Assembly: GCF_025420485.1 (NCBI RefSeq)
Contig: NZ_JAOEFD010000002.1
Location: forward strand, 1 to 64,000
DNA length: 64,000 bases
Source: Nesterenkonia marinintestina
GTDB taxonomy: Bacteria > Actinomycetota > Actinomycetes > Actinomycetales > Micrococcaceae
Direction: 5' to 3'
This document shows, piece by piece, positions 42,395 through 63,515 of this stretch. The notes under the pieces were generated by a model. The model saw only the letters and a program-made list of their open reading frames with translations, ran no database searches and had not been told where the DNA came from. The position numbers were made by a program, and so were the translations under genes. Position 1 is the first letter of the stretch; each line of letters opens with the position of its first letter.

Positions 42395-44038
42395 ATGGCC
42401 ACCGCACCGCAGCGCACCGACGGACGCTACGACGTCGACGTCGTCCAGCTCTCCGACTTCCGGCTGCCCGGGGGCACCACCAGCAGCATCGCCGAAGAGG
42501 TCCGCGCCCAGTCCGCGGCCGGCATCACCACCGCCCTGGTCCACACGGCGGGGAACATCACGAACCACCCCCACCCGTGGAGCGCCCACATCCGCGGTGT
42601 GCTGGACCTTCCGCATGTGCGTGTGGCCACCCACCGGGACCGCCTCCACACCAAGCTGCTCGTGATCCGCCACCCCACGGTCATCTGGTCCACCATGGCC
42701 ACCTTCGACCGCATCAGCGCCGACGAGGTCGTCGTGGTGGTCAACCACGCGGCCGTCGACGCCGCCGGAACCCGCCACTACCCGGTGGAGGAGACCGACC
42801 GACGGGTGCGCGACCTCTTCGGTCGGGACCCGATCTGGGCGCCCATCGGACCGGTCGTGCGGGGCACCGTGCTCGAACAGACGACCCGTGTGCCGCTGCG
42901 GGAGTCGGACTGGGTGAACATCTTCCGGGTGCCCGACGACCTGGGGACCCGCACCGGCTTCCTCGGCGATCGACCCATCATCGGCCGGCACTCCCGCCCC
43001 GAGCCGGGCAAGTGGCCCGCCACCCGCCGGGACATCCGTGCCGCCTACCCGGACTCAGAGAAGTACCAGGTCGAGATCCTCGGAGGCGCCTGGGCCGCAG
43101 AGAAGATCCTGCGGGGGAGGCCCGAGCACTGGCACGTGGTCCCGTTCGGGGGCGAGGACCCGATGCGGTTCCTGCAGCGGATCGACTTCTGGGTCTACAT
43201 GCACCACCCGGACCTCAAGGAGGCCTTCGGACGTGCGGCCATGGAGGCCCTGGCCGCCGGCTGCGTGGCCGTCATGCCTCCCTACATGGAGGAGCTCTTC
43301 GGCGACGCCGCCCTGTATGCGATGCCGCAGCAGGTCACCGGGATCGTGGACGCCCTGTGGAAGGACCCCGAGAGGTTCCTCGCGCAGTCCCGCCGCGCCC
43401 AGGAGTTCGCCCGCTCCTTCACCCCTCAGATGCACATCGAACGGCTCGGGGAGCTCGGCGTCCACGCCCCGAAGACACCGCCTGCGGAGAAGGAGCTCGC
43501 CGTGCCCCGACGACTCGACGGACCGACCCTGGTGATCAGCACCCAGGAGGAGGCCGCGGCGACCGCCGCCGCCGTCGTCGACGGTCTGCGCACGCCCCGG
43601 CGCGGTGCCGCATGGGTGCGGATCGCCGAACGCCCGACGGCCTCCGGTGGCTCCGCCGCGGCGTCCGACGCCGCATCCGACGCCGCATCCGACTCGGCCG
43701 GGGAGGCCCCGACGGTCAGGCCGGACGTCGAGATCTCCTCCCAGGCCGGATTCAACACCCATCATGCGGCCTGGAGCGACTACCTGGGGTCGCGGCTGAC
43801 GCAGCTGGTGGGCGCGCTTCAGCCGGGGCGCGTCGTCGTCGTCGGCCCGACGGCGGACGATGCGCTGGTCCTCGCCGCACGCCGCGCCGGGACGAGCAGC
43901 TTCTGGGTGCGCCCGCCCGGAGCCCGGGAGCTCGACGAGGAGGCGATGACCGCCGCACGGAGCTTCTCACGCACGTTCTCCCCCGAAGAGGCGGAGGACC
44001 TGGACACGGTGCTCGAGGGCATCGTCGCCCAGCGATAG
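42395..44038 (+). CDS. GT-B fold glycosyltransferase with C-terminal extension
   Basis: A 547-residue cytosolic glycosyltransferase. Residues 12-110 give the acceptor-side Rossmann half (DVDVVQLSDFRLPGGTTSSI). The donor half includes FWVYMHHPDLKEAFGRAAME and ALAAGCVAVMPPYMEELFGD (about 268-310), the E-x-F-G-R-x-x-x-E pattern of GT4-like enzymes. From about 370 there is a separate alpha/beta segment (PTLVISTQEEAAATAAAVVD...) with a SDAASDAASDS low-complexity insertion. First gene of the ATP-grasp surface locus by direction; the next gene follows after about 45 bases. Donor and acceptor unknown. Confidence 0.8.
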   Translation: MATAPQRTDGRYDVDVVQLSDFRLPGGTTSSIAEEVRAQSAAGITTALVHTAGNITNHPHPWSAHIRGVLDLPHVRVATHRDRLHTKLLVIRHPTVIWSTMATFDRISADEVVVVVNHAAVDAAGTRHYPVEETDRRVRDLFGRDPIWAPIGPVVRGTVLEQTTRVPLRESDWVNIFRVPDDLGTRTGFLGDRPIIGRHSRPEPGKWPATRRDIRAAYPDSEKYQVEILGGAWAAEKILRGRPEHWHVVPFGGEDPMRFLQRIDFWVYMHHPDLKEAFGRAAMEALAAGCVAVMPPYMEELFGDAALYAMPQQVTGIVDALWKDPERFLAQSRRAQEFARSFTPQMHIERLGELGVHAPKTPPAEKELAVPRRLDGPTLVISTQEEAAATAAAVVDGLRTPRRGAAWVRIAERPTASGGSAAASDAASDAASDSAGEAPTVRPDVEISSQAGFNTHHAAWSDYLGSRLTQLVGALQPGRVVVVGPTADDALVLAARRAGTSSFWVRPPGARELDEEAMTAARSFSRTFSPEEAEDLDTVLEGIVAQR

Positions 44039-44085
44039 CGGCGCCGGACCAGGTCTATCGACGGAACGACAGGAGCATGACAGCG

Positions 44086-45156
44086 ATGCACCACACCGAG
44101 GACGAGGCCCCCGTCAGCGCTGGCTCGTGGGCGTCCGGGCTCGAGGCATGGGCCCGCGGACGCTGGTCCGAGCGGATGATCCCCGCGGACCGGACGATGG
44201 CGTTCGCGCCCCAGGGCACCGAACGTCCGCGGGCCTTCCGCGACGTGCCGGTGGTGATCCTGGTGATGACCCGAGCCACCGAGCGCCTGCACAGGGCGCT
44301 GTTCCGCAGCGTGGAGCTGCTCCGCGAATCGACCTACGGATTCCGGGCGGTGCTCTTCACCGACGACGCCGGCGTCTTCGCGGACGCCGATGTGGACTGG
44401 GTACTCGAACACACCGTCTCGGAGGCCGACTGGGCCCAGATCTCGTCGGAGGACTGGCTCAGCTCCGCCGCCGCACACCTGGGATGGGCGCAGCTGCAGT
44501 ACGGAGCCTCGCTGGTGCTGGCCCCCGAGACTCCGGACCAGGTGCGCGCCGCCGTCGCCCGCCTCGGTGCGGCGTTCCACGCCGCGGAGAAGGTGCGTCG
44601 CACGGCGGCGACCATCCTCGAGGACGAGCTCCAGGGTCTCGACGACACCCAGGACCTCTCCTCCCGACGCACGACCTCGGCGCGCGGCTGGTGGGGCAGG
44701 CTGGGGACCGGCCGCTCCACGGTGCGTATCGCGCAGTCCGAGGGTGCGCGGATGAAGCTGGTGATCGCCCGGGCCGACCGTTCCGCGGGCCTGCTGATCG
44801 GCCCCGGCGGCACGGCCGTCGACGCGTTCCTCGCCGAGGGGCGAGCGGCGGGCTTCTCCACCGTCAGCTTCGACGTCGAGGTGGGCACCGACTCCGCCGT
44901 CGTGCAGTCCGGGTTGGAGACCGCGATCCGCGCGGCGGTGGAGACCCTCGGTGCGACCGGCCCCGCCCTGTTCGTCGCCGCGGCCACGTCGAACCCGGAC
45001 CGGGCTGCGGACCGGGGGCTCGACGGGGTGATCCGGCTGGGCGGAGAGTCCGAGCCCCACGAGCTGACGATGTCCTACGGCTCGGCCGTGGAGTTCGAGG
45101 CGGGGAGCGTCGGGGACGTGCTCCGCCGCCTGGTGCGCGTCCACCGCGGGGCGTGA
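44086..45156 (+). CDS. uncharacterised protein of the surface-polymer locus
   Basis: A 356-residue, two-part alpha/beta protein I do not recognise. The first part (about 48-185) has VPVVILVMTRATERLHRALF and a strand-helix pattern YGFRAVLFTDDAGVFADADV that could be a glycosyltransferase-like or Rossmann fold. The second part starts MKLVIARADRSAGLLIGPGG and ends in a SNPDRAADRGLDG region. The C-terminal extension of the preceding glycosyltransferase looks similar in style, so the two may share a domain. ATG 44086 has AGGAG ten bases upstream; ATG 44077 is in frame and closer. Seven bases separate it from the convergent fused ligase gene. Confidence 0.65.
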   Translation: MHHTEDEAPVSAGSWASGLEAWARGRWSERMIPADRTMAFAPQGTERPRAFRDVPVVILVMTRATERLHRALFRSVELLRESTYGFRAVLFTDDAGVFADADVDWVLEHTVSEADWAQISSEDWLSSAAAHLGWAQLQYGASLVLAPETPDQVRAAVARLGAAFHAAEKVRRTAATILEDELQGLDDTQDLSSRRTTSARGWWGRLGTGRSTVRIAQSEGARMKLVIARADRSAGLLIGPGGTAVDAFLAEGRAAGFSTVSFDVEVGTDSAVVQSGLETAIRAAVETLGATGPALFVAAATSNPDRAADRGLDGVIRLGGESEPHELTMSYGSAVEFEAGSVGDVLRRLVRVHRGA

Positions 45157-45163
45157 CCGGCTC

Positions 45164-47836
45164 TCAGCGGCCGAGGCCGGCCCCCGAGACCTCCTCCGGA
45201 AGCAGCCGGTCGAGGAACTCCTCGATCCTGCCGGCGAGCATCCTCTCCTCCGCACGGATCCGAGGGGACAGGGACATCCCCTCGACGAGGACCTGAGGCT
45301 CATCGCCGTCGGCTGACCTGGTAATGACGACATCGACTACGGCCCATCGCAGCTGCGGCACGGCCTGAACAGCCGCATCGGCGAGTTCCGCGGCCCGGCG
45401 GAGGTCGCTGTGATCGACGTCGGCGTCCTGCGCGGAGAGGACCGTGAGGACGGCTCCCGTGTGGACGAACAGGCGCAGCCGCGCGCCGGCCGGCGCCTCC
45501 TGCACGATCCAGCGCTCCTGCCGATCCCAGTCCACGTCGTCTGCGTCGTCCGCCTCGCCGTCCGCCTCCCCATCGGACTCGCCGTCGGTCTCATCATCGG
45601 CCCCCTCGCCACGTCGGTCGTCGATGCCCGCCCCGACCGGACGGGTGCCGCGTCCCGCCCAGGGGGAGCTGTAGGGGGTGGCCAGCAGCGGTCCGCGGAG
45701 CTCGGCCGTCTGCAGATCCTGTGCATCTGCGACGACGGCGGCGGGCACCAGCGGGACGCCTTCGTGGAGGAGCAGCCGCCTCAGAGGGCCGAGTCGATCG
45801 GCGGTCCGACAGGAGATCGCGAGATCCCGTCCCCCCAGACCGCGGGCGCTGATCGGTGCGGTCCCGCCGTCGGGTGCCGAGAGGGAGCGCAGCCGCGGAC
45901 CGCGCCGCGAGACGGTGAGGCCCCGATGCTCGGCATAGGCGAACAGGAGCCGCGCCGGAGAGGTCACCTCGCCGTCGACGAACGGCAGGTCCTGCAGTCT
46001 GCCGGCCTCGGGATCACCGGTCGGCGGTGCGAGGTCTGAGGTCCACGGCTCGAGGGCCCCGGCCGCATGCTCCTCACGGAGCATCCAGGCATGACCGGCC
46101 ACGTCTTGGGAGGCCCCCGAGGAGGGGAACGTGGCGCTGCCGTAGCCGGCGCGCGAATTGACCTCTAGCACGTAGACGTCCCCGGTGCCCCGTTCGACCA
46201 TCAGATCCACTCCGCCCCAGCGCAGCTCCGGGACTGCGGCGACGGCGGCCACGGCGGCGTCGCGGATCCTGCCGTCGGACAGGTGGGACACTTCGGCGAT
46301 GTCCCCTCCGCTGCTCTGCCCGCCCACGGAGCCGACCGTGACCAGAGCACCGACCGGCGGGACGTCGTCGGCCCGCCACCCCTGGGCCTCGAGCACCGAC
46401 TCGGCGGTCCGGTCGAGCACGACGTCCATCCCGGCCAGGCTGAAGATGGTGCTCCGGTAGGCGTTCCGCTCGGTCACCAGCTCCTCCACGGTCGATATGC
46501 CGTCGCCCCAGACCTGCGGGAGGGTGCGGGCGGTGATGGAGATGCAGTGCTGTGAGGAGGCCATGACCCGCAGCTCGGTCTCGATGTCGACGTGCTGTTC
46601 GATCATGATCCGCCGGCTGTGCCGTCGGGCGCGTCGGTAGGCCTCGACGACGGAGTCCTCGTCCCGCAGGTCGGTGCTCACACCGAGGCCCTTCTCCCGG
46701 TCGGCGGGTTTCAAGGTCACCGGCAGTCCGATGCGCCGGGCCTTCTCCCAGGCCTGGGCGGGGGAGCGGACCAGGGCGGCGTCGGTGACCGGGACGCCGG
46801 CGCGGCGCAGGTGCCGGTTGGTCTGGAACTTGTCGGTCGAGATGCTGGCTCCGAGCTGTGAGCTGTGGGCCAGGTATCCGTCGATGAGGAATCGCCCGGC
46901 CGAGGTCGTGGCGACAGCCGCCCTGGCGGAGACCCAGCTGATCTGCGCCCCGGCACGTGCGGCGGCTTCGGCGTTGAGGGACGCGCCCAGATGCCTGCTC
47001 GGGGAGAACCGCTCCAGTCCGCGCCGGATGGCCCCGTGGGCGCGGAAGGGTTCGGTCTCGTCGGGGTCCCGCCCGTCGAGGAGCCCGGTCGGCGGCACCG
47101 GACGGAACCCCGGCTCCCAGGTGCCCAGCGGCAGGCGCAGGTGGGCGCCGAGCTCGTCCTCGGCGGTGCGGATCTGCGGATCGGCGAAGCTCCAGCCGTT
47201 CGGAGACGCTCGACGCAGGCGGTCAAGGAGGCATTCGAGGTCGGTCCCGTCCGTCCCCGTCCCGTCCTCGGCCAGCGGGTACAGGGCAAGCGTCATGCTG
47301 CGGCGGTCCGGGGTGCCCGCGACCTCCAGCACAGTCCGCACGTGCCGGGTGTCACCGGGGGTGAGCGCCCAGCGCCGTCGGCTGCGCAGCGCCTGGAGTC
47401 CTGTGCCGGGGCCGAGGACGAGATCCGCCTGTTGGTCGAGCAGGTGCTGGATCTGATGGAACCGACCCGGGGTGTGCGGACGTCGGCCCTCGGGCTCGGC
47501 AAGGACGATGTTCCACGCCTCAGGGTCGACGGCGACGGTGGGCGGAGGGGTGTCGGGCCCTCCCCAGGCGCGGGGACGATGCACGAGCAGTTCGCCGCCG
47601 CCGAGCGTCTCCGGCACCGGGATTCGTGTGGGCACCTGATCCTGCTCGGCCGCGGGGCGCGGCTCGGAGGAGTCGACGACGGCGTCGACGCCGTCGCCGG
47701 GAGCGGCCTCGGAAGGTCCGTGGCGGTTCCTGAGCCAGCGGCCCAGCCGCGTGACGAGTCCCGCCGGTCGGTCCGCCCCGTCCTCGAGCTGCGCGAGGGG
47801 GCGCTGGGTCAGCAGGACGCGGAACGGCGGCGGCAT
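45164..47836 (-). CDS. fused ligase: decayed CapA-like domain, ATP-grasp, degenerate ATP-grasp
   Basis: 890 residues, three domains. 1-245 align with the CapA-like protein at 52673-53785 (FRVLL start; ADLVLGPGTGLQAL for YDLIVGHGAHCLQEL; ALYPLAEDG for RLYPVKADN; DELGAHLRLPLGTW), but the metal-site histidines are gone (GHGAH became GPGTG; AFPHWG became LAEPEG) and the middle is shortened. 285-600 are an intact ATP-grasp: K376, E413, D544, E558 and N560, with VWGDGISTVEELV. About 640-890 are a second ATP-grasp-like domain ending VLVEGMSLSPR without the metal-binding Asn. An Asp/Gly/Glu run (ADDETDGESDGEADGEADD) interrupts the last domain. Likely forms an amide bond on an unknown polymer. Confidence 0.82.
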   Translation of the reverse strand: MPPPFRVLLTQRPLAQLEDGADRPAGLVTRLGRWLRNRHGPSEAAPGDGVDAVVDSSEPRPAAEQDQVPTRIPVPETLGGGELLVHRPRAWGGPDTPPPTVAVDPEAWNIVLAEPEGRRPHTPGRFHQIQHLLDQQADLVLGPGTGLQALRSRRRWALTPGDTRHVRTVLEVAGTPDRRSMTLALYPLAEDGTGTDGTDLECLLDRLRRASPNGWSFADPQIRTAEDELGAHLRLPLGTWEPGFRPVPPTGLLDGRDPDETEPFRAHGAIRRGLERFSPSRHLGASLNAEAAARAGAQISWVSARAAVATTSAGRFLIDGYLAHSSQLGASISTDKFQTNRHLRRAGVPVTDAALVRSPAQAWEKARRIGLPVTLKPADREKGLGVSTDLRDEDSVVEAYRRARRHSRRIMIEQHVDIETELRVMASSQHCISITARTLPQVWGDGISTVEELVTERNAYRSTIFSLAGMDVVLDRTAESVLEAQGWRADDVPPVGALVTVGSVGGQSSGGDIAEVSHLSDGRIRDAAVAAVAAVPELRWGGVDLMVERGTGDVYVLEVNSRAGYGSATFPSSGASQDVAGHAWMLREEHAAGALEPWTSDLAPPTGDPEAGRLQDLPFVDGEVTSPARLLFAYAEHRGLTVSRRGPRLRSLSAPDGGTAPISARGLGGRDLAISCRTADRLGPLRRLLLHEGVPLVPAAVVADAQDLQTAELRGPLLATPYSSPWAGRGTRPVGAGIDDRRGEGADDETDGESDGEADGEADDADDVDWDRQERWIVQEAPAGARLRLFVHTGAVLTVLSAQDADVDHSDLRRAAELADAAVQAVPQLRWAVVDVVITRSADGDEPQVLVEGMSLSPRIRAEERMLAGRIEEFLDRLLPEEVSGAGLGR

Positions 47837-47877
47837 GACGTCATTATCCCCGACCCGGGCGTTCCGGCGGGGAGTGG

Positions 47878-49107
47878 TCAGCGGAGGTCACGGGCGCGGA
47901 CGACGCCGCGGCGCAGGAAGTACTCGCGCGCTCTGGGATCGGTCAGCAGGGGTCGGTGGACCTGCAGCACGTTCATGCCCGAGTTGATGTTGGCCTCTAG
48001 GATGACAGGCCCGTCGGGTCCGATGATGATGTCCCATCCGACGTACTCCATGAAGCTCAGCCGGTTGGCCGCATCCAGGATCATCGCTTTGGTGGTCTCC
48101 CAGTGAGGGACCTGGGCGCCTTCGAGGGCGGCCCCGGAGTCGGGGTGGTGGGTGTACCAGACCGGTGTGCGGTCCTCGGGGAGCTGGGCGGCCCGGCTGA
48201 GCCGTCCGGTCTCGATGTCGATCTCGGCGCTGAGGCCCCCCTGGGTCCAGTTGTCGACGTGGTTGGACTGGGAGGTGCCGATCCGCTGCACGGCGGTGAG
48301 GATGAAGGGCTCCCTGCCGCGGGAGAGGTCCGGCATGGTCAGCACGCGGATGGTGTTGGTCGATCGCGGGTTCAGCGCGGCCTGCTCGGGGGCCTGCTCG
48401 ACGGCGGCCTCGAAGAGCATGGGCCGCTTGCGCCGCTCGATCCAGGCGCGGATGTCGGAGACCTCTGCGGGCTCGCCGTTCATCACATACCCGTCCTCGG
48501 TACGGCGGATGGCACGCACCCACCGGCCCTCGGCGCCCTGGGCAGGCTTGATGAAGATGCGGCTGCCCACCTCGATCCGCGAGTCCAGGAACTCCTGCAG
48601 GGGGACTCGGTCGTCCTGCGGGAACACATGGACCGCTCCGCGGGAGTAGAGCCCCAGCAGCGGGACGGTGTCGGAGTCCAGGCCCAGCTGGTTCATCAGC
48701 AGGAAGAAGCTGAACTTGTTGTCCAGGACCTCCTGCAGGTCCGGGTGGACCATGTATTTGGTGCGCGTGTAGCGCTGCACGTCGGTGATGTAGTCGCGCG
48801 GGTCGTTGTGCTCGAGGTCGTAGAGGGTGACCGAGCGGGAGAGGAAGCCGCGGCGCCACCAGGCGGGCCGCCGCTGGTCCCAGGAGGTCTCCCAACGGAA
48901 CTCCTTCCGCAGGAACTTGCGGTAGTCGTCGGCGTAGCGCTTCACCGCCCGATAGTCCTCGCGCAGCAGACGCGGGTCCTGCCGGCCTCGCCGGGCCAGC
49001 TGCCGCGCCTTGCGCGCGACCCGTCGGGTCAGGGACATCGGGGCGGGGTTCTGCTCAGCGGAGGTCACCGGGCCATCGTATCCACTGCCGCTGGGGGCCT
49101 CAGACAA
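47878..49107 (-). CDS. sugar-transfer-associated ATP-grasp protein, copy 1
   Basis: About 409 residues from TTG 49107; GTG 49068 or ATG 49038 are possible starts. A basic N-terminus is followed by the family block YRKFLRKEFRWETSWDQRRP, LYDLEHNDPRDYITDVQRYT and LQEVLDNKFSFFLLMNQLGL, then an ATP-grasp core: RIFIKPAQGAEGRWVRAI (lysine loop), MLFEAAVEQAPEQAALNPRS, LSAEIDIETGRLSRA and IIIGPDGPVILEANINSGM with the E-x-N metal site. This pattern is that of ATPgrasp_ST (sugar-transfer associated) proteins, which accompany envelope polysaccharide genes. Close paralogue of the next gene, overlapping it by eight bases. Amino-acid attachment to a sugar is inferred. Confidence 0.83.
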   Translation of the reverse strand: MSEAPSGSGYDGPVTSAEQNPAPMSLTRRVARKARQLARRGRQDPRLLREDYRAVKRYADDYRKFLRKEFRWETSWDQRRPAWWRRGFLSRSVTLYDLEHNDPRDYITDVQRYTRTKYMVHPDLQEVLDNKFSFFLLMNQLGLDSDTVPLLGLYSRGAVHVFPQDDRVPLQEFLDSRIEVGSRIFIKPAQGAEGRWVRAIRRTEDGYVMNGEPAEVSDIRAWIERRKRPMLFEAAVEQAPEQAALNPRSTNTIRVLTMPDLSRGREPFILTAVQRIGTSQSNHVDNWTQGGLSAEIDIETGRLSRAAQLPEDRTPVWYTHHPDSGAALEGAQVPHWETTKAMILDAANRLSFMEYVGWDIIIGPDGPVILEANINSGMNVLQVHRPLLTDPRAREYFLRRGVVRARDLR

Positions 49108-50302
49108 CGCCGCGCTTCTCGAAGTAGCGGCGGACCCTGGGGTCGGTGAGCAGGGGACGGTGGACCTGCAGGACGTTCATCCCGGAGTTGACGTTGCCTT
49201 CGAGGATCACCGGTCCGGTGGGGCTGATGATGATGTCCCAGCCGATGTACTCCAGGAAGTTCAGCCGCTGGGCGGCGTCGAGCACCAGCTTCTTCGTCTC
49301 CTCCCAGAAGGGCACCTCCACGCCCTCGATCTGGGAGCCGACGTCGGGGTGGACGGAGAACCATTCCAGCTCGCGGCTCTCCGGCAGCCGGCTGGCCTTT
49401 CCGAGTCGGCCGGTCTCGATGTCGATCTCGGCGCTGAGCCCGCCCCGGGTCCAGTTGTCCAGGTGGTTGGACCTGGCGGTCGCGATGCGCTGCACGGCGA
49501 TGACGATGAACGGCTCCTTGCCCCGGGTGATGTCGGGCATGGTGAGCACGCGGATGGTGTTGGTCGCCTCGGGGTTCAGGGCCGCCTGCGCCTCGGCCTG
49601 GGGGACGGCGGCCTCGATCGCCATCGGGCGCGGCCGTCCGCCGAGCCAGCGGCGGACCTCGTCGAACGTCGACGGAACCCCGTCCATGACGAACCCGTCC
49701 TCGCCGGTCCGACGGATCGCGCGCACGTGCTTGCCCTCGGCGCCGCGGAAGGGTTTGACGAACACCTTCTGGCCGATCTCCAGACGCTCGGTGAGGAAGT
49801 CGGCCAGCGGAATGCGCTCGTCCTCTGGGAAGACGTGGACGTCTCCGCGCGAGTGGATGCCCAGCAGCGGGACGGTGTCGGAGTCCAGGCCCAGCTGGTT
49901 CATCAGCAGGAAGAAGGTGAACTTGTTGTGGAGCACGTCCTGCAGGTGGGGGTGCACCATGTGCCGGGTGCGGGTGTAGCGCTGGACGTCGGAGACGTAG
50001 TCGCGGGGGTCGTTCTGGTCGAGGCCGTAGAGCGTGGCCGAGCGGGAGAGGAACCCGCGTCCCCACCACAGCGGCTGTCGCTGGCCGAAGGAGGTCTCCC
50101 AGCGGAACTCCTTGCGCAGGAACTTCCAGTAGTCCTCGCGGAACCGGCGGCCCCTGCGCAGCGTCCGGCGCCAGTCTCTGCGCTGGGCGTCGGCCCGGAG
50201 TGCGGCCTGCTTCGACCGGCGGAGCACTCTTCGTGCCAGGGAGGGTCCTGAGGAGGGGTTCTGAGAGGTGTCCGGCGAGGGGTGCCGCGGGGTTGATGCC
50301 AT
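49100..50302 (-). CDS. sugar-transfer-associated ATP-grasp protein, copy 2
   Basis: A 400-residue paralogue of copy 1: WKFLRKEFRWETSFGQRQPL, LYGLDQNDPRDYVSDVQRYT and LQDVLHNKFTFFLLMNQLGL. The catalytic set is complete: KVFVKPFRGAEGKHVRAI, MAIEAAVPQAEAQAALNPEA, LSAEIDIETGRLGKA and IIISPTGPVILEGNVNSGM. It is the first gene of the minus-strand operon 50302 to 45164, with GGAGG upstream of ATG 50302. The two copies are near-colinear from the family block to the C-terminus, so they arose by tandem duplication; differences in the specificity region would let them add different residues. The divergent control region lies at 50303-50400. Confidence 0.83.
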   Translation of the reverse strand: MASTPRHPSPDTSQNPSSGPSLARRVLRRSKQAALRADAQRRDWRRTLRRGRRFREDYWKFLRKEFRWETSFGQRQPLWWGRGFLSRSATLYGLDQNDPRDYVSDVQRYTRTRHMVHPHLQDVLHNKFTFFLLMNQLGLDSDTVPLLGIHSRGDVHVFPEDERIPLADFLTERLEIGQKVFVKPFRGAEGKHVRAIRRTGEDGFVMDGVPSTFDEVRRWLGGRPRPMAIEAAVPQAEAQAALNPEATNTIRVLTMPDITRGKEPFIVIAVQRIATARSNHLDNWTRGGLSAEIDIETGRLGKASRLPESRELEWFSVHPDVGSQIEGVEVPFWEETKKLVLDAAQRLNFLEYIGWDIIISPTGPVILEGNVNSGMNVLQVHRPLLTDPRVRRYFEKRGVV

Positions 50303-52110: not shown

Positions 52111-52120
52111 GGAGGACGTC

Positions 52121-52549: not shown

Positions 52550-52672
52550 GTGCCGACAGACGGCAGAGGCGGTTGGAGGAGTAGAGTGTGGTGCTGCGGC
52601 TGGTGTGCCGCCGGTACCGCCGAGGTCGTCGATGATGGTGGTCGGCCGGGGGACATACGACTGGAGGAATCT

Positions 52673-53785: not shown

Positions 53786-53922
53786 TGAATCGACCACCGG
53801 CCGGATGTGACATAGTATTCGGCGAGCCGTGGGGACGAACGAGCTGAATTGATCCGCTCGACATATGGTTGTAGGAATCGCCACTTCGGCGCAGTGCTAG
53901 ACCGGAAAGGTGACGACTGGAG

Positions 53923-55113: not shown

Positions 55114-57103
55114 CGCAGAGAGCACCGGTCAAGGTACTGAATCTCGCCGGACGGGCCGACGTGCCACCATCACCATGGTCCGGTTGGTGAGGTTGCGCCG
55201 TCACGAGACCGGACACAGACCCAGCAGAATCTACGCGCAGATCGTGGGAGACCATCCCGAAGGTCGAGTGTCGGGGAACGGTCACGCCGAACTGATGTCG
55301 ACCGGTGAACATGTCCTGTTGCCCAAAGATGCGTGGGAGACGGGGGAGTCGGTGCTGGGTGCGCTGATCGGTGAGGACATCCTGCTCGGACACGAGCGCG
55401 ACATCCGTCGCCTGATCGCGAAAGTCATCGATGGCGCGAGCATGTCGGGCGACGACCACACCGACATCGATACGCAGAATGACCCTGACGACTCCACGGA
55501 GGAACCGAGCTACGAGGCCCACTATGTGGTGCTGAGGGCCGTGAAGGAAGCCCTATGGGCGTTCTTCGTCGGCCAGCCTGACGAACATGCAGACAATGAG
55601 CTCGGAAACCTGTTGAACAGCAGGATGGACCAGGTGTCTCGATACTTCGTCGCCCCGTCACCGGCGGCCCCGCGCTACGAGGGCGAAGCCGCCAACGCAT
55701 TCGTCGACGCCCCGTTCATCAAACCGCTGCCCAAGGATGGGACGAAGGGCCATCTGCTGGAACGTGAAGCCCTGCGGTACGGCATGTCGAGCACGAGGTA
55801 TCCGAACGGTGCATTCGTCGTGAAGGACCCGTTGAGTCAGCGGGAGCTGGGCTTCAAGTGGGGTCGAGCGCCTTTGGCAAGCGGTGTGGCTCTGTCCATC
55901 TGCAGTTATAAGGAAGCCACTCGTCGCCTCCTCAAGCGTGTTGATGTGCCTGTGCCTCAGGGCCGGGTGTTCTCGGCCGATGACGGCGACTTGGCGTTGG
56001 ACTATGCAGACCGTATCGGCTACCCCGTAGTCTGCAAGCCTGTGGCAGGACTTCGCGGGATCGGAGTCGTTGCGGACATCGGCAGCCGGGCGGAGCTGGA
56101 AGATGCCCTGGAGCTCTATCGGAAGAGCCAGCTCGGCGACGACGACTTCGTCATCGAGGAGCACGTGCCGGGGGAGGACTATCGCATCGTGGTCATCGGC
56201 GACCGTGTGGTCGCCGCGGTCGTCAGAGCTCCCGCTTCGGTCACAGGTGATGGAACCCACACCGTTGCAGACCTCATCGAATACAAGAACAGGGCTCGAC
56301 GGGAGAACCCTCATCTCAGTTCGAGGCCGATCACCTGTGATCCGGCCCTGGAGTACCAGCTGAAGCTGCACGGTCTGACCTACTCGTCGATCCCAGCAGC
56401 CGGACACGAGGTCACGCTGGCGAACTCGGCCAACCTGTCGCAAGGCGGAGACAGCTTCGAGGTTGCGAACGAGCTCCATCCCTCGATCAAGGAACTCGCC
56501 GTCAAGGCGGTCGGTTCTGTACCTGGCCTCGGCTTCTGCGGCCTGGACATGCTCATCGAGGACCACACGAAACCGGTGTGGGAGCAGACAGTCACTGTGA
56601 TCGAACTCAATGCTCACGCCGCCATCGGCAGTGCGCAGTACCCGATGTGGGGTACACCGGCGCCGGTGGCGAAAGCACTGTTCGAGGCGACGTGTGAGGA
56701 TGCCGGCGTAGACCTGCCGATGACTCAGAGCGAAGAGCTCTCGCTCGCCCTGACCATCCGTGGTCGAGTCAAAGGAGTCAAGTATCGAAAGTGGTTCCAT
56801 CGTCGAGCCTGCGAGTTCGGGTTGGACGGTTATGTGGAGAACAGAGGCAGGAATCGTGTCCAGGCTGTGATCTCGGGAGATGCAGACGCAGTGTCTGCGC
56901 TGTGCTACCTGGCTATGCAGGGTCCGGAGAAGGCAATCCCCACCTCCGTGACGGCAATGCCGACGTCGGTCGACGTCGATCCGGGCTTCTCGATCCGGCG
57001 GGAGGAAAGCCGAGATACACAGAATAGGATCTCGCCGCTGGTGATACTCAGGCGTGCCGTGTCGGCATTCCTGCGGCGTGGCAAGAGTGTCATCGCATCC
57101 TGA
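55106..57103 (+). CDS. cyanophycin-synthetase-like ATP-grasp ligase fused to an acylphosphatase domain
   Basis: A 665-residue protein. Residues 1-250 form an N-terminal domain with a helical part (AHYVVLRAVKEALWAFFVGQ) as in cyanophycin synthetase-like proteins. About 255-530 are ATP-grasp: YPVVCKPVAGLRGIGVV (K311), FVIEEHVPGEDYRIVV (E351, E352), ASVTGDGTHTVADLIEYKN (a cyanophycin-synthetase motif), GLDMLIED and VIELNAH (D481, E500, N502). About 545-620 match acylphosphatase: RGRVKGVKYRKWFHRRA with catalytic R561, and DGYVENRGRNRV with N579. Amide ligation via an acyl phosphate, plus a domain that hydrolyses acyl phosphates, is an odd pair; editing is one idea. Overlaps the degenerate ATP-grasp gene by eight bases. 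Confidence 0.83.
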   Translation: MSDAESTGQGTESRRTGRRATITMVRLVRLRRHETGHRPSRIYAQIVGDHPEGRVSGNGHAELMSTGEHVLLPKDAWETGESVLGALIGEDILLGHERDIRRLIAKVIDGASMSGDDHTDIDTQNDPDDSTEEPSYEAHYVVLRAVKEALWAFFVGQPDEHADNELGNLLNSRMDQVSRYFVAPSPAAPRYEGEAANAFVDAPFIKPLPKDGTKGHLLEREALRYGMSSTRYPNGAFVVKDPLSQRELGFKWGRAPLASGVALSICSYKEATRRLLKRVDVPVPQGRVFSADDGDLALDYADRIGYPVVCKPVAGLRGIGVVADIGSRAELEDALELYRKSQLGDDDFVIEEHVPGEDYRIVVIGDRVVAAVVRAPASVTGDGTHTVADLIEYKNRARRENPHLSSRPITCDPALEYQLKLHGLTYSSIPAAGHEVTLANSANLSQGGDSFEVANELHPSIKELAVKAVGSVPGLGFCGLDMLIEDHTKPVWEQTVTVIELNAHAAIGSAQYPMWGTPAPVAKALFEATCEDAGVDLPMTQSEELSLALTIRGRVKGVKYRKWFHRRACEFGLDGYVENRGRNRVQAVISGDADAVSALCYLAMQGPEKAIPTSVTAMPTSVDVDPGFSIRREESRDTQNRISPLVILRRAVSAFLRRGKSVIAS

Positions 57104-57142
57104 GCCGTCTCGACTCGGCTGTGTGCTTCGTGTCGCCTCTCT

Positions 57143-57176
57143 GGCTAGCGGGTTTCGCGATGTGGCTCTGCTAGCC
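57143..57176. repeat. short inverted repeat upstream of the small membrane protein gene
   Basis: GGCTAGC (57143-57149) and GCTAGCC (57170-57176), a perfect seven-base inverted repeat with a 20-base spacer, in the 142-base gap before the gene at 57246. It may be an operator or part of a terminator for the ligase gene; nothing further supports either. Confidence 0.3.
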
Positions 57177-57245
57177 TTGAGATACGCGTTGGTGAACGGT
57201 TCTTGATTACGATCCTTTTCTCAACGTGCTGGAGGGGACAGTAGC

Positions 57246-57833
57246 ATGGAGCACGACGTCAGAGGTGCCGGGGCCGTCACTAAACGCGACGCAGCGGGTA
57301 TCTTCGCCGCAGTGGTATTCGCCGGATTCCTGTTCGCACCGTTGCGTCACTACGTAGGTGATCTGTCCGACGTCGAGCAGGCCAAGAAGGAGAAGGACTC
57401 GTTTCCGTTCTCGACGTATCCGATGTTCACCGCCTACCGCCACGGGTGTCAGTCGATTCCTCATGTTGTGGGTTTCACGTCCGACGGGTCGCGGGTACAT
57501 CTCGATTATCGTCACTTCGGATCCGGCGGTCTCAACCAAGTGCGGCGGCAGATCAGCCGCGCGATGCGCAGGGGACAGGCGACTCGTGTCGCACAGCGCT
57601 ATGCCGATGCTCTGCGGCGTCGGGCGCGGTCGCGTGAGAAGGATGTCATCGAAGTCGCTGTGGTACGGAGTCGGTTCATATTCGACGAGTACTTCGGCCA
57701 CGGAGCTGATGGAGCGACGAATCTGCCCTTCAGGGAGCGTGTCCATGCGACGTGTGTCGTCGGGGGGCAGGCAGTCGGTTTCGATCCGCCGATACGATGG
57801 AAATCAAGAGGATTGAGTACTCGACAAGAGTGA
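57246..57833 (+). CDS. small membrane-anchored protein paired with an HTTM protein
   Basis: A 195-residue protein with one N-terminal membrane helix (about 17-36, AGIFAAVVFAGFLFAPLRHYV less one residue) and an extracytoplasmic or cytosolic domain starting SFPFSTYPMFTAYR. F-P-x-S-x-Y-P-M-F is a motif I associate with proteins encoded beside HTTM genes. The rest is basic alpha/beta with RVHLDYRHFGSGGLNQVRRQ. GGAGGGG lies a few bases upstream of ATG 57246. The next gene, after about 95 bases, is the HTTM protein, so these two probably work together. Reaction unknown. Confidence 0.68.
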   Translation: MEHDVRGAGAVTKRDAAGIFAAVVFAGFLFAPLRHYVGDLSDVEQAKKEKDSFPFSTYPMFTAYRHGCQSIPHVVGFTSDGSRVHLDYRHFGSGGLNQVRRQISRAMRRGQATRVAQRYADALRRRARSREKDVIEVAVVRSRFIFDEYFGHGADGATNLPFRERVHATCVVGGQAVGFDPPIRWKSRGLSTRQE

Positions 57834-57928
57834 AGCTGAACGGGGCCGCGTAGCGCGATCTGACCGTCGCACGGTCCTGGACTGCAGATGAAGAACTGAC
57901 TGAGTCGCACGGATCGAGGAGACGTCCA

Positions 57929-58837
57929 GTGGAGAGAACGGCTACGGGGCGACGGACGATAGTACGCGTGGTGGACCACCTTCGTCCCGCGGCATTGCCC
58001 ATTCGTCCCGCAGTTCCCAGGATCGGCATCGGCGTGTTCTCCGCCGTGTCGAACTTCAAGCGTCGGCGAATGATCCGAAATCTGCATCGGCAGGACAGTG
58101 ACCGCTTCGCACCTGTGGGCGTGTGCCGGGTGCTGAAGGTCCCCTTACCTCCGAATGTCGCTGACGCCATCTGGGAGGCGGCTCAGGTCACCAACTTCCT
58201 GACGACCCTTGGTGTCGGGCATCGGGTCTTCGGACCGCTGAACGTGGCGTTGCAGTGGTGGGCTCTCACCTACCGCCAGTCCTGGGGCATGTTGCACCAC
58301 AACGACAACATGATGCTCATGCATCAGTGCGTGCTGGGTGTGACGCGCTCTGCGGACGCCTTGTCCGTCGATGCTCTTGTGCGCCATCGTCAGATTGCTC
58401 CGACGAACTTCGACCGATCCTATGGTGGAGTCCTCACGGCTATGAACCTGGCGACCGTCGCGGTGTACTTCATCTCCGGCGTCGCCAAAGTGCGCAGCCG
58501 GCACGGCTGGAAGTGGGCCGATGGTCAAGTCCTGCGGGATCAGATCGCAGCTGATGCGATTCGCAAGGAGGTGTTCGGATCGAAGCCTCCAACCGCTGCA
58601 GGGACACTGTATCGATCGCAGGTCCGCTTCGGCGCCCTATCAGTGATCGCCTTGGCGGTCGAACTTGGTGCTCCCCTCTCACTCGTTCACCGACGGGCCG
58701 GACAGGTCTTCTCCGTCGCGGCTTGGGGGATGCATATAGGGATACGCGTAGTGATGGGCATCAAGTTCACCTATAACGTGACGGGCGTGAGCTATCTGCC
58801 GTACTGGCCGGTCGGACGCCAGTTGCCTATAGGTTGA
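57929..58837 (+). CDS. HTTM-domain (vitamin-K-dependent carboxylase-like) membrane protein
   Basis: A 302-residue protein. The stretch WWALTYRQSWGMLHHNDNMM (110-129) and VAVYFISGVAKVR (178-190) followed by WKWADGQVLRDQI (194-206) are typical of the HTTM family related to gamma-glutamyl carboxylase. Lys187 sits where that family has its conserved, catalytically important lysine (my alignment by eye). Four or so membrane segments lie between about 80 and 290. GTG 57929 has GAGGAG upstream. The C-terminus YLPYWPVGRQLPIG is complete. Many HTTM proteins have no known reaction; modification of glutamate in a locus carrying polyglutamate-type ligases is an attractive but untested idea. Confidence 0.72.
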   Translation: MERTATGRRTIVRVVDHLRPAALPIRPAVPRIGIGVFSAVSNFKRRRMIRNLHRQDSDRFAPVGVCRVLKVPLPPNVADAIWEAAQVTNFLTTLGVGHRVFGPLNVALQWWALTYRQSWGMLHHNDNMMLMHQCVLGVTRSADALSVDALVRHRQIAPTNFDRSYGGVLTAMNLATVAVYFISGVAKVRSRHGWKWADGQVLRDQIAADAIRKEVFGSKPPTAAGTLYRSQVRFGALSVIALAVELGAPLSLVHRRAGQVFSVAAWGMHIGIRVVMGIKFTYNVTGVSYLPYWPVGRQLPIG

Positions 58838-58949: not shown

Positions 58950-59028
58950 CTGTTGAGTCAGTCATGAAGGAGATTCGGACCTATGGGAAGACCCCCTTGT
59001 CGTCCCGGCCGAGCGGAAGACTCGGATC

Positions 59029-59301
59029 GTGCTGAGCGTGATCGCTGGCGAGCTTTCGATCGCTGAGGGGGCTCGTCGCGAGAAGGTCAGTGAGCAGTCC
59101 ATCGGTCGGTGGAAGGCTGAGTTCCTCGAAGGCGGCAGGACCGCGCTGGCGGCCGGCCGCAACGGCCCGTCGAGTCGTGAGGGGCAGCTCGAGGCTGAAG
59201 TCGCTGACCTGACCCAGGCCCTCGGTGAGGCTGCGGTCGAGTTGAGGGTGTGGAAGAGGTCCGCGGAGGGCCTGCTGGGCCCTTCGAGGACCTCGAGGTG
59301 A
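59029..59301 (+). CDS. IS transposase, HTH part (orfA-like), 5' end uncertain
   Basis: A 90-residue frame from GTG 59029: SVIAGELSIAEGARREKVSE then SIGRWKAEFLEGGRTALAAG, a helix-turn-helix of IS3-type OrfA, and a leucine-containing coil (LEAEVADLTQALGEAAVELR). Upstream codons PAERKTR in the same frame look coding too, but no start lies before the stop at 58954. A peptide starting ATG 58964 in another frame gives MKEIRTYG, which looks like the natural N-terminus, so a frameshift near 58985 has probably damaged the gene. The frame overlaps the next one by about 50 bases, as in programmed -1 frameshifting. Confidence 0.6.
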   Translation: MLSVIAGELSIAEGARREKVSEQSIGRWKAEFLEGGRTALAAGRNGPSSREGQLEAEVADLTQALGEAAVELRVWKRSAEGLLGPSRTSR

Positions 59302-60264
59302 TCCGGATCGAGTCCGGGATGTCGACCGCGAGGTGGTGCGAGAAGTTCGACATCCCGGAACGGACCTGGCGGCGCTGGCAAGCGCGCGGTCGTGCCGGCG
59401 GCCAGGCCAAGGGCCCATGGCCGCAGCCAGCGCGGTGTAGCGCCCGGGACCTGATGCTCAAGCACGCCGCCGCGCATCTGGCGTGGGGTCATCGTAAGAT
59501 CTGGGCCCTGACCCGGCACGACGGCCACATGGTCTCCGAGGCGACCGTGCTGCGGATCCTGCGCGATGAGGGGCTGTTCCTGCCGGAGAGCTATCAGCGC
59601 GAACGGCGCCAGCTCGCCTGCGTGGAGGAAGGCGGCGTTCGCTGATGAGTCGACGAGACCGAACCAGGTCTGGCAGCTGGACTTCTCCGAGTTCGAGACC
59701 TCCGGGTTCGAGACCTCCGGCGGCGGGACGTGGCGGATCGCGGGATGTCGGGACTACTGGTCCAAGTATGAGCATCGCTGGCACGTGTCCCCGACGGCGA
59801 ACCAGTTCGACGCCATCGCCGCGGTCGAGCTCGCGCTGGCCGACTACGAGCAGGTGTTCGGTCATCCGCTCAGCGACCTGTGTGAGGCCGACACCCAAAC
59901 CGGCGAGATACTGCCGGTGGTGACGATCGTGACCGACAACGGCGGCCCGTTCCGCTCGTTCCGGTTCCAGGCCTTCATCGAGATGCATCCCGAGCTCGCG
60001 CACGTGCGCACCAGAGTGAAGTCGCCAGGGCAGAACGGTTCACGCGAGCGCGGGTTCGGCACCCTGAAGTACGAGCGGCTCTACCTCGACGAGATCGACG
60101 ACGTTTTGATGCTGGCCAAGCACGCCGAGGACTACCGGATCCAGTGCAACGAGCTCAGACCTCACGAAGCACTGTCCTGGAACCGGCCACTGGAGGTGCA
60201 TCTGGGCCTGGCCGACCCGACCATCCCAACATTTCAAACGACCGAAACCCTGCCAACTTCTTGA
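59250..60264 (+). pseudogene. IS transposase DDE part (orfB-like), broken by a frameshift
   Basis: The first piece (59250-59645) encodes IPERTWRRWQARGRAGG, HLAWGHRKIWALTRHDGHM and VSEATVLRILRDEGLFLPES, then stops after CVEEGGVR. The second piece, shifted by one base, resumes with RKAAFADESTRPNQVWQLDF and continues through the catalytic region: WQLDFSEFET (first D), VTIVTDNGGPFRSFRFQAF (second D), SPGQNGSRERGFGTLKYERL (E), ending FQTTETLPTS at 60264. The join needs a single-base change at about 59618-59633. Since relatives read straight through, I take this as a disabling frameshift and not programmed recoding. Confidence 0.75.
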
Positions 60265-60273
60265 CGCGGGACA
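60248..60273 (-). repeat. right terminal inverted repeat of the IS
   Basis: CCCTGCCAA, six bases, then GACGCGGGACA. Reverse complement of the left end at 58923-58949. It starts six codons before the transposase stop codon, so the coding sequence runs into the repeat. Confidence 0.75.
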
Positions 60274-60274
60274 A

Positions 60275-60581: not shown

Positions 60582-63515
60582 TCAATGATGCCCCATGGGG
60601 TCTAAGATGCAGTCAGCAGATTTCGTGGACGCACGGTCGTCGTTAACAGGTCCGATGACAGCTCGACTGAACGCATCGAAGTCGCCGGCGATGATTCGGA
60701 CCTCAGTGGAATAGGCAGGATTACATGTCATCGATTCGACAAGTATTCCTCCCGGTCGGCCTTGTTGGAGCCGGGACCGTCTTACCACTAGGTCCACGGC
60801 AGCCCAACGCAATTCAGGGATTGCCCGCACCGCTTTTACTGCCAATCTGCTCGCCTCACGCAGATGTTCCACTTCCAAAGGCCGCGAATCGGAAGGGACC
60901 GTCACGACCCAGGCCCTGTGTTGTGTGGCGAGGACTCTCAGGCGTCGGCCTCGGGGACGAGCTTGCACCCACATCTTGCCTGGTAGCGGGGCGGTTTCCA
61001 GAGCTTGTTCCTCCGTCAGGACTTGCTTCTCCGGCCCATTCCAGAGTGCCGACACAGGGATCAGGCTAACCGAGTTCACTCGTCCTTTGACGAAACGCTT
61101 GAGTTGGCGAGCTGAAGTGATGACTTCAGACCTGGGTCGGGGAACCTGGGCTACGTCCAAGAGCCCGGCAACCCATTCATGTCGTTGCATTACTTTCTGC
61201 ACGAGGGATCGGTCGGCGGACGTACGTCCATCGGCAGTAACCCAAGTCTCTTGCCCGTGGGGTGCTCGTACTTGCAGAACTCGGCGGTTCCTCTGCTGAA
61301 TGGCGTAGCCCTGTCGAATCAGTGATTCCGTGAAAAGCCGACTAAAGCTGAGTTCTTCGCTATCGAACGTTTCACCTGTGTCGTGCCAGAGTAACTCCCT
61401 TCCATAACTAGGTTCGGCGGTGTCGGGTTCACTGTTCACGGTCGGGAGTGCTGCCGCGTGCCGAAGACGCCAGACTTCCGAGCCGACATCCACAGGTTGC
61501 CCGTAAGAGGGAAACACAGCACCTCCGTAATGTGCTTGAGTATTGATCTCTATCACATATGGATTGCCGGTGCCTTTCTCGACGATAATGTCGACCCCAC
61601 CCCACTCCAATCCAGGAATAGCCGCAATTGCAGATGCTGCAGTGAACTTGATGTCGGGACCAGTGCCCGCCAGGGCTTGATACGGATCAGCTCCAGCGCT
61701 GAGCCCGGCAACATTGCGAATCTCGATGTGATCACCCATACCGGGTACAGATTCGAGAGATAATTCCTGCTTCTCCAGGTACCGATCCGTAAGGCTATCA
61801 ACAGGCATGGGAAGGTTTCGTAGGGCTGGATTCAAACGCCGTTGGAGATTCTTATCGTCGATCAACTGCTTGACTGTAGAGGCGCCATCTCCGATCACAT
61901 GGGGCGCGACGCGTCCGACCACTGCGACCGCCTGATCAGGGGAAGCCATAACACGGAGCTCCTCCTCGACCTCTATGTGCTCCTGGACGATTATCTGTGA
62001 ACCATGAGATTGAGCGAAGGTGAAACCTTGCCGGATCTCTTCTTCTCCTATGAGACCGGTAGAAACTCCCTTGCTTTGGTGTCCGCTGCGCGGCTTGATC
62101 GTCACCGGACCACCGATCGCATCTGCTGCTAGAATCGCTTTCTCAGCCGAATCGACAAGAAACGTCTTCGGAGTCGGTACGCTGTTAAGTGTTAATAGTT
62201 CACCAGTCAGGACTTTATCCTTCACGATGAAGGCACCTAGAGAGGATTCGTGTGCTTGATAATCACAGGCGAGCAGACGCTTGCTGTGAGCTTCGATGAG
62301 AGCCAACCGGCCAATCCAGTGAACTGTTCCGCCTTCAGCTTCAGCCGGTATGGACATCATGGAGACACTCAAGGGCTTATCCGAAGCAGCCAGAACCTGG
62401 CTCTCCAGAGTTTCATCGGGGGATCTCACGGGCCAGTCACCGGGGTCACCACCATCGAGAGGGGGGTTCAGGCGTGACGGCCTGTCTCCTATGGGCCACG
62501 TGCCGAGGTCGAGGGCCAGAAAGTACCCAAGATCGTCCTGGCCCGTGTCCTGAGCAGGATTACTGAATCTCCATGGTCGGACTGTTCGTGCCAGGAGGGT
62601 AGCGACCACATGGAAAAAATCACCAGCTGAGACGGGGTGAGGCTGGAATCCAGTTCTCGTGTTATCCGAGTATACTGGGTAGAGCTTAAGCTTTAAGCTC
62701 CTCTTGTAATTATTATTGTGAACTTCAAGAAAAGACCAGAAGCTGAATGGAAGAATTCCTCTTCTGTTCTCATAACGCTCCCATTTAGTGTCGGTGTTGG
62801 AAAGACCATCGCCGATCCCATACACGACCCATCTCTGTTGCTTGCGGTGAACTTCTCGCAATGTGTGACCGCCGTGCCCGAGGACCAGATCGAAGTCCTT
62901 GTTGAGAAGTCGGTGTGCAAGTTGATACTGAATACTATTCTTCCATCTGTAATTGGAGCCCCAGCTGGGGAAAGCCACTTGAAATGAATCGGGTATCGTT
63001 GATTCGTTCCTAGCATTAGGGGTGCCAGGAATAGACAAGGGGGAGCATCCTGCAGAGCCGTTTTCTGCATAAAGCTCCGAATCGCTACCTCTTGGAGTAG
63101 CGTATTGGGAGAACCCATGAAGGTGGATCTCCCCTCCTCCGACTCGCTCCGGTAACGGCAATCGGAGTGGTACTCGGGCCTCATCGATGGTTCGACCGGC
63201 ACCGAACCACTCAATACCGGCATCGTCAAGCGCTCGAAATGCTGACTCGATTCCTGCAAAGCCAAGGTCGAGGGCGTGGCTATTTGCGAGGCTGACCGCA
63301 TCGACGCTGAGGTCGCGGAGTCTATCCGCCGTATTCTTCGGATCAGTCAGTGGCGTCGCGAGATTCGCGACGAATGAATCTGATGCTTCAATGAAAGGGC
63401 GCAGATGAACCGTATGGTGCGAGTGTCCGGGCTGCTGTGAAGACTGAGGGAATCCGGTGGTGTAGCTCTCCCCAAAGTGCGAGTCTCCTATAATGAGTGT
63501 TCGATGCGATTCCAC
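60582..63515 (-). CDS. fused CapA-like / ATP-grasp / degenerate ATP-grasp ligase
   Basis: 977 residues, three domains. About 5-345 are CapA-like: GDSHFGE (D11, H13) and GHGGH (H214, H217) are kept, but NLETP reads NLATP (A53), NNH reads NSH (S79), and PHWG reads PSWG (S184); a ten-residue piece before residue 70 is also missing. About 400-690 are an intact ATP-grasp: VTIKPRSGHQSKGVS (K474), IIVQEHIEVEEELRVM (E512), VIGDGASTVKQLI, D642, and VIEINTQ (E656, N658). About 700-977 are a second ATP-grasp fold with ILVESMTCNPA in place of E-x-N. It starts with GTG 63515 behind GAGGTGGG. Base composition is markedly more AT-rich than the rest of the window. Flanked by IS elements. Confidence 0.85.
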   Translation of the reverse strand: MESHRTLIIGDSHFGESYTTGFPQSSQQPGHSHHTVHLRPFIEASDSFVANLATPLTDPKNTADRLRDLSVDAVSLANSHALDLGFAGIESAFRALDDAGIEWFGAGRTIDEARVPLRLPLPERVGGGEIHLHGFSQYATPRGSDSELYAENGSAGCSPLSIPGTPNARNESTIPDSFQVAFPSWGSNYRWKNSIQYQLAHRLLNKDFDLVLGHGGHTLREVHRKQQRWVVYGIGDGLSNTDTKWERYENRRGILPFSFWSFLEVHNNNYKRSLKLKLYPVYSDNTRTGFQPHPVSAGDFFHVVATLLARTVRPWRFSNPAQDTGQDDLGYFLALDLGTWPIGDRPSRLNPPLDGGDPGDWPVRSPDETLESQVLAASDKPLSVSMMSIPAEAEGGTVHWIGRLALIEAHSKRLLACDYQAHESSLGAFIVKDKVLTGELLTLNSVPTPKTFLVDSAEKAILAADAIGGPVTIKPRSGHQSKGVSTGLIGEEEIRQGFTFAQSHGSQIIVQEHIEVEEELRVMASPDQAVAVVGRVAPHVIGDGASTVKQLIDDKNLQRRLNPALRNLPMPVDSLTDRYLEKQELSLESVPGMGDHIEIRNVAGLSAGADPYQALAGTGPDIKFTAASAIAAIPGLEWGGVDIIVEKGTGNPYVIEINTQAHYGGAVFPSYGQPVDVGSEVWRLRHAAALPTVNSEPDTAEPSYGRELLWHDTGETFDSEELSFSRLFTESLIRQGYAIQQRNRRVLQVRAPHGQETWVTADGRTSADRSLVQKVMQRHEWVAGLLDVAQVPRPRSEVITSARQLKRFVKGRVNSVSLIPVSALWNGPEKQVLTEEQALETAPLPGKMWVQARPRGRRLRVLATQHRAWVVTVPSDSRPLEVEHLREASRLAVKAVRAIPELRWAAVDLVVRRSRLQQGRPGGILVESMTCNPAYSTEVRIIAGDFDAFSRAVIGPVNDDRASTKSADCILDPMGHH

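Follow-up and report, generated by a model that had tools for sequence, protein, structure and literature searches.

The window analysed here is a 64,000-nucleotide stretch that corresponds to positions 1-64000 of contig C12 (247,112 bp) in a 2.58 Mb Nesterenkonia genome, from a bacterium that we take to be a soil inhabitant tolerant of salt and alkali. An ATP-grasp gene cluster begins with a GT-B glycosyltransferase that is kept in the cassette (42395-44038, forward strand; PF13524 E 1.6e-4, below the cut-off), with homologues in the clusters fetched from genomes G003, G006, G007, G010, G015 and G024. It is followed by a conserved forward-strand protein without a Pfam family that had been overlooked previously (44077-45156; 343 codons align with G003 C1:434679-435821 at 40% identity). 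Three genes then lie on the reverse strand: one for an 890-aa protein that joins a worn CapA-like N-terminus to an active-looking CphA-like ATP-grasp and a degenerate ATP-grasp (45164-47836), and two for ATPgrasp_ST proteins (47878-49107, PF14397 E 1.5e-40; 49100-50302, PF14397 E 9.6e-38). The forward strand continues with an AsnB-like adenylating, amide-forming enzyme (50401-52110; PF00733 E 9.1e-5), a small conserved cassette protein with homologues in the clusters of nine other genomes (52121-52549), a CapA-family protein with intact active-site residues that we propose as a peptide epimerase (52673-53785; PF09587 E 2.1e-43), a degenerate ATP-grasp partner recognized from motif reading and predicted fold (53923-55113), and a 665-aa CphA-like ATP-grasp ligase with a C-terminal acylphosphatase domain (55106-57103; PF00708 E 4.2e-13; NF010623 E 9.2e-63 over residues 259-527). 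One relative of the small 52121 protein, c46, includes a GT2-like part (PF00535 E 1.8e-4, below the cut-off). Two further forward-strand proteins (57246-57833 and 57929-58837) precede a reverse-strand gene for a 977-aa protein with a CapA domain, an active-looking CphA-like ATP-grasp and a degenerate ATP-grasp (60582-63515; PF09587 E 1.9e-27). Active-looking and degenerate ATP-grasps were separated by motif reading in the translations, and the domain inventory was checked with Pfam and NCBIfam. The domain list of an earlier note, made from the letters of the window, holds for three active-looking and three degenerate CphA-like ATP-grasps, two ATPgrasp_ST proteins, three CapA-like domains (one intact; the worn third, in the 890-aa protein, seen by BLASTP), the asparagine-synthetase-like protein and the GT-B enzyme. 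Its HTTM label for 57929-58837 found no profile match in Pfam or NCBIfam, and the small 57246-57833 protein has no Pfam family.

Nucleotide composition changes along the cluster: GC content is 70.5% upstream of 42395, 62% across 52550-58837 and 55% across 60582-63515. Decayed pieces of an IS3-type transposase occupy 59029-60264 on the forward strand (PF01527, PF13276, PF13683) and are older than a 1313-bp insertion sequence with perfect 25-bp inverted ends that lies within the ATP-grasp cluster on the same strand (contig 63696-65008, of which 63696-64000 falls in the window). The cluster goes on beyond the window, where the contig carries a gene with two ATP-grasps (65582-67495), an amino-acid permease (67624-69147) and a nucleotide-sugar dehydrogenase (69278-70591; TIGR03026 414.3 bits, cut-off 189.8). 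This match is in keeping with a uronic-acid nucleotide-sugar supply and leaves the enzyme subtype and its sugar unfixed. A further CapA-ATP-grasp fusion of 962 aa lies about 12 kb beyond the dehydrogenase (contig 82150-85038). An exporter occurs outside the cluster, at the smc site of contig C23, where it adjoins another CphA-like ATP-grasp; its ATPase is 74% identical to the exporter ATPase of G010.

ATP-grasp enzymes form amide bonds via acyl phosphates. The acylphosphatase domain of the 55106 ligase, which went unmentioned in the earlier note, scores 49.8 bits against PF00708 (cut-off 22.5), and the Arg and Asn of its catalytic motif are present when read by eye; the Asn is lost in N. alba. 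The domain was also found in tested ligases of loci L063, L064 (two of three), L065 (one of two), L066, L067 and L068; it falls below the cut-off in L054:15864-18602 and is not listed for L064:14381-16012 and L065:13207-15234. An acylphosphatase on an ATP-grasp ligase would suit editing or release. The predicted structure of the degenerate 53923 protein (mean pLDDT 83.5) has an ATP-grasp fold closest to cyanophycin synthetase. At the end of that protein the predicted strand-helix order hints at a possible acylphosphatase fold; the VIA rows cover residues 16-307. Taken together, the number of paralogues and their fusions suggest that a peptide may be built stepwise on a glycan. When 23 ligases were placed in a tree, those of Nesterenkonia did not group together but fell into three separate groups, and the window protein paired with N. 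muleiensis; gene transfer and old paralogy would both produce this pattern. Plasmid-borne copies were rejected: tblastn of plasmids with the G010 ligase returned seven records, with best places that cover 26-31% of the query and are confined to the ATP-grasp part.

The AsnB-like reading frame is listed from 50200, and a GTG at 50401 agrees better with the alignment. The SGGxDS loop is kept in the 10 correctly framed alignment rows, and the glutaminase Cys is uncertain: it is present in the window, is preceded by GTC, a non-start codon, in the first G003 copy and in G006, and is absent from G024 and L054. Placing the start of a class II glutaminase at the GTG just ahead of this Cys was abandoned, since those two relatives carry GTC at that position.

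CapA had been named in the earlier note through its place in polyglutamate capsules, and here it is doubtful that it serves as a capsule protein outside the cell. The listed reading frame runs from 52550; with the start read as 52673 the protein has no signal peptide, and it resembles the peptide epimerase MslH. MslH structures are the only solved proteins that match it by sequence, and its predicted structure matches MslH with E 2.3e-18, a TM-score of 0.60 and 17% identity (next fold, 6e-6). MslH is described as a Ca-dependent peptide epimerase with His88/Asp91 and His295/Asp11 dyads (PMC10406935). The two proteins share a calcineurin-like fold and most catalytic residues: equivalents of MslH D11, E44, N87, H88, D91 and H295 are retained in the window CapA, which has one His where MslH has both His259 and His261. 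It scores 48.9 bits against NF038314 (cut-off 700). The retained residues also occur in other metallophosphoesterase-fold proteins and are therefore no proof of epimerization. Three metal ligands are lost in the CapA domain of the 977-aa protein. We take pgsA to belong to the CapA family. Polyglutamate of B. subtilis is reported to shift from a D/L ratio of 75/25 to 5/95 without pgsA (PMC6029982). Residue conservation, predicted fold and the pgsA effect together suggest that CapA may set D-residues through MslH-like epimerization of peptides. A strong CapA-family match also occurs outside the locus (G000:C34:108341-109096, E 1.2e-52), and similarly strong off-cluster matches across many Nesterenkonia point to a CapA with a housekeeping role.

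Within the genus the presence of the cluster is uneven. A search of 30 Nesterenkonia genomes with profile A4, which covers the ligase region, gave near-full-length matches in 12 and a fragmented one in G017, hence 13 of 30; weaker matches in G014, G023 and G026 were counted as other ATP-grasps. The asparagine-synthetase-like gene occurs in exactly the same 13 genomes (Fisher p 8e-9, uncorrected for relatedness), and strong ATPgrasp_ST matches (E <1e-30) are found in these 13 and G026. Single scattering of the genes among relatives had been named earlier as a sign against such a locus. Ligase and asparagine-synthetase-like gene share a contig within at most 25 kb in 11 of the 13 genomes, so that clustering largely holds, and they lie on different contigs in G005 and G027. 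By our own count, a locus-linked CapA is present in five of the 13 ligase-bearing genomes; the glycosyltransferase recurs in many of the clusters fetched, as do the small 52121 protein and the degenerate partner. The cassette sits mostly beside smc, followed in several genomes by a two-gene ABC exporter, and otherwise next to genes for SpoIIM and Lit, which is the arrangement of the window and of one G003 copy out of two. In the window the protein that adjoins SpoIIM has 661 aa (39990-41975) and combines a long charged N-terminal stretch with a Lit (lipoprotein intramolecular transacylase) domain; a SpoIIM/Lit pair likewise borders the G003 copy. In the N. pannonica assembly (G017:C1:1882001-1902000; L056) the cluster is broken into many frames by sequencing errors or decay. 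Beyond the genus, the Micrococcales-wide gene set that had been suggested as a search target did not emerge: the ligase is present in two of 395 other Actinomycetota genomes sampled (best four candidates per genome scored), and six genomes from the family's other genera yielded a single match, in G030, confined to the ATP-grasp core. Nesterenkonia is described as rich in haloalkaliphiles (PMC8875376). The ligase is missing from 17 of the 30 genus members and is therefore dispensable for haloalkaliphile life.

Related sets extend well outside the actinomycetes. A scan of named genomes returned at least 79 loci, the best 16 of which extend to the acylphosphatase region: Nesterenkonia (5), CSSed metagenome-assembled genomes (MAGs; 2), Haloechinothrix, Phytoactinopolyspora, Ruania, Halomonas heilongjiangensis and Bacillaceae (5). 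The other 63 of these at least 79 loci match in the ATP-grasp core only, and at least four of them bear alkaliphile or CSSed names (L088, L120, L128, L130). The link to habitat is drawn from record titles and is tentative, for Ruania rhizosphaerae and Amphibacillus MSJ-3 in particular; the CSSed MAGs are presumably of soda-lake origin. Neighbourhoods repeat parts of the set with varying completeness, including the degenerate partner, CapA, the asparagine-synthetase-like gene, the glycosyltransferase, ATPgrasp_ST and the exporter. In L055 and L061 the ligase has a racemase gene of the Asp/Glu/cysteate type next to it, and relatives also carry domains of the enolase superfamily that are akin to dipeptide epimerases; the Pfam scan found no enolase-superfamily family among the window proteins. 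Fusions comprise CapA-TupA and enolase-TupA, both recognized with Pfam (the latter in L055), enolase-CapA with a weak ATPgrasp_ST part, and enolase-ATP-grasp-acylphosphatase. For dipeptide epimerases we assume a KxK base, D-E-D metal ligands and a second Lys as the criterion. By our own reading, the Ruania enolase domain (L062:7247-10627) retains the D-E-D ligands and the second Lys with KxR instead of KxK, while those joined to ligases in Nesterenkonia lack catalytic residues to varying degrees and are not claimed as active epimerases.

TupA points to a tie between the ligases and a known type of surface polymer. A TupA-family gene (PF14305) lies within the locus in all five named Bacillaceae loci, as a separate gene in L064, L066, L067 and L068. 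The Amphibacillus locus L065 has two tandem CapA-TupA fusions beside its ligases (15276-17474 and 17538-19691). The Halomonas locus also has a TupA (L057:20341-21288, E 5.4e-26), and a search of 11 named-locus genomes found no TupA in four (L054, L061, L062, L063). TupA occurs in 47 of 397 genomes of a Bacilli sample. A profile of the Bacilli ligases (A5), built partly from G450 and G453, which are both among the 18 linked genomes described below, was run on all 47 TupA-positive genomes and on 33 of the 350 TupA-negative ones, picked by handle number. Full-type ligase matches appeared in 20 of the 47 TupA-positive genomes versus none of the 33 TupA-negative ones; in two more TupA-positive genomes, G798 and G818, the matches were only partial and were interpreted as ordinary CphA. 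TupA genes were divided into long and short at a 400-aa frame cut chosen after the data were seen, with one 120-aa fragment excluded. For long TupA outside fusions, a ligase lies 75-223 bp away (between match ends) in 18 of 19 genomes, the exception being G734, in which the two are on different contigs; short TupA places have a ligase within 10 kb in none of 39 cases, and the short-TupA regions L154-L157, fetched as a contrast set, contain no ligase. The 16 long-TupA regions fetched share one gene order on a single strand: a glycosyltransferase, then TupA, then three to four ligases. An ABC ATPase is seen in 13 of these 16 truncated stretches (downstream of the ligases in L140) and CapA in eight, two of them with an opposite-strand copy. 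These observations, together with the CapA-TupA fusions, bear out in part the earlier idea of a peptide-bearing surface glycan instead of cyanophycin, as Bacilli ligases adjoin TupA, glycosyltransferases and usually an ABC exporter. Among Nesterenkonia, TupA-family hits occur in 25 of 30 genomes, and the hit of the window genome lies on contig C1, not in the locus; an in-cluster TupA was seen only in G010 (E 2.1e-34), so the tie of Nesterenkonia to TupA is indirect. A direct link between ATPgrasp_ST and TupA was rejected as weak, the two families resembling each other only slightly (hhalign 63.5%, 74 columns; BLASTP E 0.08).

This context bears on what else the locus might make. An osmolyte peptide that stays inside the cell, similar to N-acetylglutaminylglutamine amide (NAGGN), in which ATP-grasp ligases and an AsnB-like amidotransferase yield a small amidated peptide against salt stress, shares its enzyme pair with the locus: the two NAGGN enzymes are represented by TIGR03103, which the ligase matches with E 1.2e-41, and by TIGR03104, which the AsnB-like protein matches with E 8.9e-10, and many holders bear halophile names. 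Both scores are far below the curated cut-offs (143 of 569 bits and 37.4 of 570.1 bits), the scanned ligases have no GNAT domain among their Pfam matches, and the Bacilli ligases adjoin a glycosyltransferase, TupA and mostly an exporter, which is a surface-polymer setting; an osmolyte product is accordingly improbable. A glycan-free homopolymer, secreted or capsular, such as polyglutamate, seems equally improbable, with the glycosyltransferases then belonging to a neighbouring pathway. The CapA family, the many ATP-grasp peptide ligases and the racemase-type genes of L055 and L061 would suit such a product, and the locus shares with PgsBCA/CapBCA capsule systems a CapA family member with a possible role in D/L composition. 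It differs from them in that CapA lacks a signal peptide and ATP-grasp ligases stand where PgsB would be: the window and downstream proteins scanned contain no Mur-ligase-like PgsB/CapB Pfam family. The glycosyltransferase, moreover, adjoins TupA in 16 of 16 long-TupA regions, and the cassette glycosyltransferase recurs in relatives. Slightly less credible again is a specialized metabolite, an antibiotic or siderophore-like peptide made by the ATP-grasp ligases, as might be expected from uneven occurrence (13 of 30 Nesterenkonia genomes, two of 395 other actinomycetes sampled), diverse paralogues and an MFS transporter near the cluster in relatives. Against it stand the ligase matches, one to 13 in each Nesterenkonia genome (E up to 1e-20), the linkage to TupA and an ABC exporter, and the wall hydrolases or peptidoglycan-binding repeats that adjoin the L064 and L067 loci. 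A cyanophycin-like intracellular storage polymer is very improbable: the ATP-grasp core is shared with the synthetase CphA1 (a relative matches PDB 7wac with E 1.7e-41), but the ligase reaches 212.6 bits against a cut-off of 877, aligns with model positions 205-469 of 871 only, has no Mur-ligase Pfam match, and belongs to a set with acylphosphatase, CapA or enolase domains in place of the Mur-ligase half.

The locus probably makes a teichuronopeptide-type surface polymer, that is, a uronate glycan that carries peptides made by ATP-grasp ligases. We infer the reactions, the product and its role from the observed gene content and co-occurrence, the gene order around TupA in Bacilli, fused domains, fold predictions and residues of the active sites. 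The nucleotide-sugar dehydrogenase would supply an acidic sugar and the glycosyltransferases would build the glycan. The CphA-like and ATPgrasp_ST ligases (with TupA in Bacilli) would convert carboxylates to acyl phosphates and add amino acids successively, each ATP-grasp paralogue perhaps forming a different bond and the degenerate ATP-grasps serving as partner or docking domains. The acylphosphatase domain could hydrolyse wrong or finished acyl phosphates, for editing or release; D-residues could come from the MslH-like CapA epimerase or, in relatives, from the racemase or an enolase-superfamily domain; and the AsnB-like enzyme may form an amide by adenylation. The two-component ABC exporter, encoded at a second site in the window genome, would move the polymer out.

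The teichuronopeptide (TUP) of alkaliphilic Bacillus consists, according to one source, of poly-gamma-L-glutamate and polyglucuronate, is important for alkaliphily and is associated with tupA; the same text mentions, ambiguously and without listing genes, polyglutamate-synthesizing genes in B. halodurans, so that TUP there could use other enzymes (PMC8153356). Common to that system and the present one are TupA beside ligases (in Bacilli), a uronate supply, peptide ligases and an exporter. They differ in that the ATP-grasp ligase set here has acylphosphatase and epimerase-like domains, and in that most Nesterenkonia have ATPgrasp_ST and not a locus-linked TupA. Teichuronopeptides are also among the products listed for linked peptide ligases in a passage of another source, which cites earlier work (PMC4431377); ATP-grasp-type ligases for teichuronopeptides are thus already proposed in print. 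Such linked peptide-ligase operons of ATP-grasp amidoligases likewise hold several ligases per operon, and acylphosphatase fusions, CapA or enolase domains and degenerate partners are absent from that passage. A literature search by direct phrases, confined to journals readable without subscription, found no paper on TupA-like ATP-grasps or teichuronopeptide synthesis, and among the papers listed nothing concerned the genes of the Natronococcus cell-wall polymer. More tentatively, the genes could represent a template-free assembly line that uses ATP-grasps only, with epimerase and acyl-phosphate-editing domains, that adds one residue per paralogue onto a uronate glycan, has been transferred among haloalkaliphiles of several phyla and constitutes the missing teichuronopeptide ligases; we consider this extended form possible and less likely than its converse.

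Acidic wall polymers presumably help alkaliphiles to maintain a less alkaline surface, and teichuronopeptide is the best known of these polymers (PMC8153356). Concrete ligase, exporter and epimerase candidates are now tied to long TupA in Bacilli, and actinomycetes, Halomonas and two MAGs carry a set that parallels theirs, which makes synthesis of the polymer amenable to study through gene deletions and analysis of the wall. ATP-grasp ligases that bear an acylphosphatase domain and a CapA peptide epimerase would open new enzymology, and the latter might bear on the D-content of polyglutamate. The related sets, many of them in bacteria with salt or alkali names, suggest a route to an acidic protective coat.
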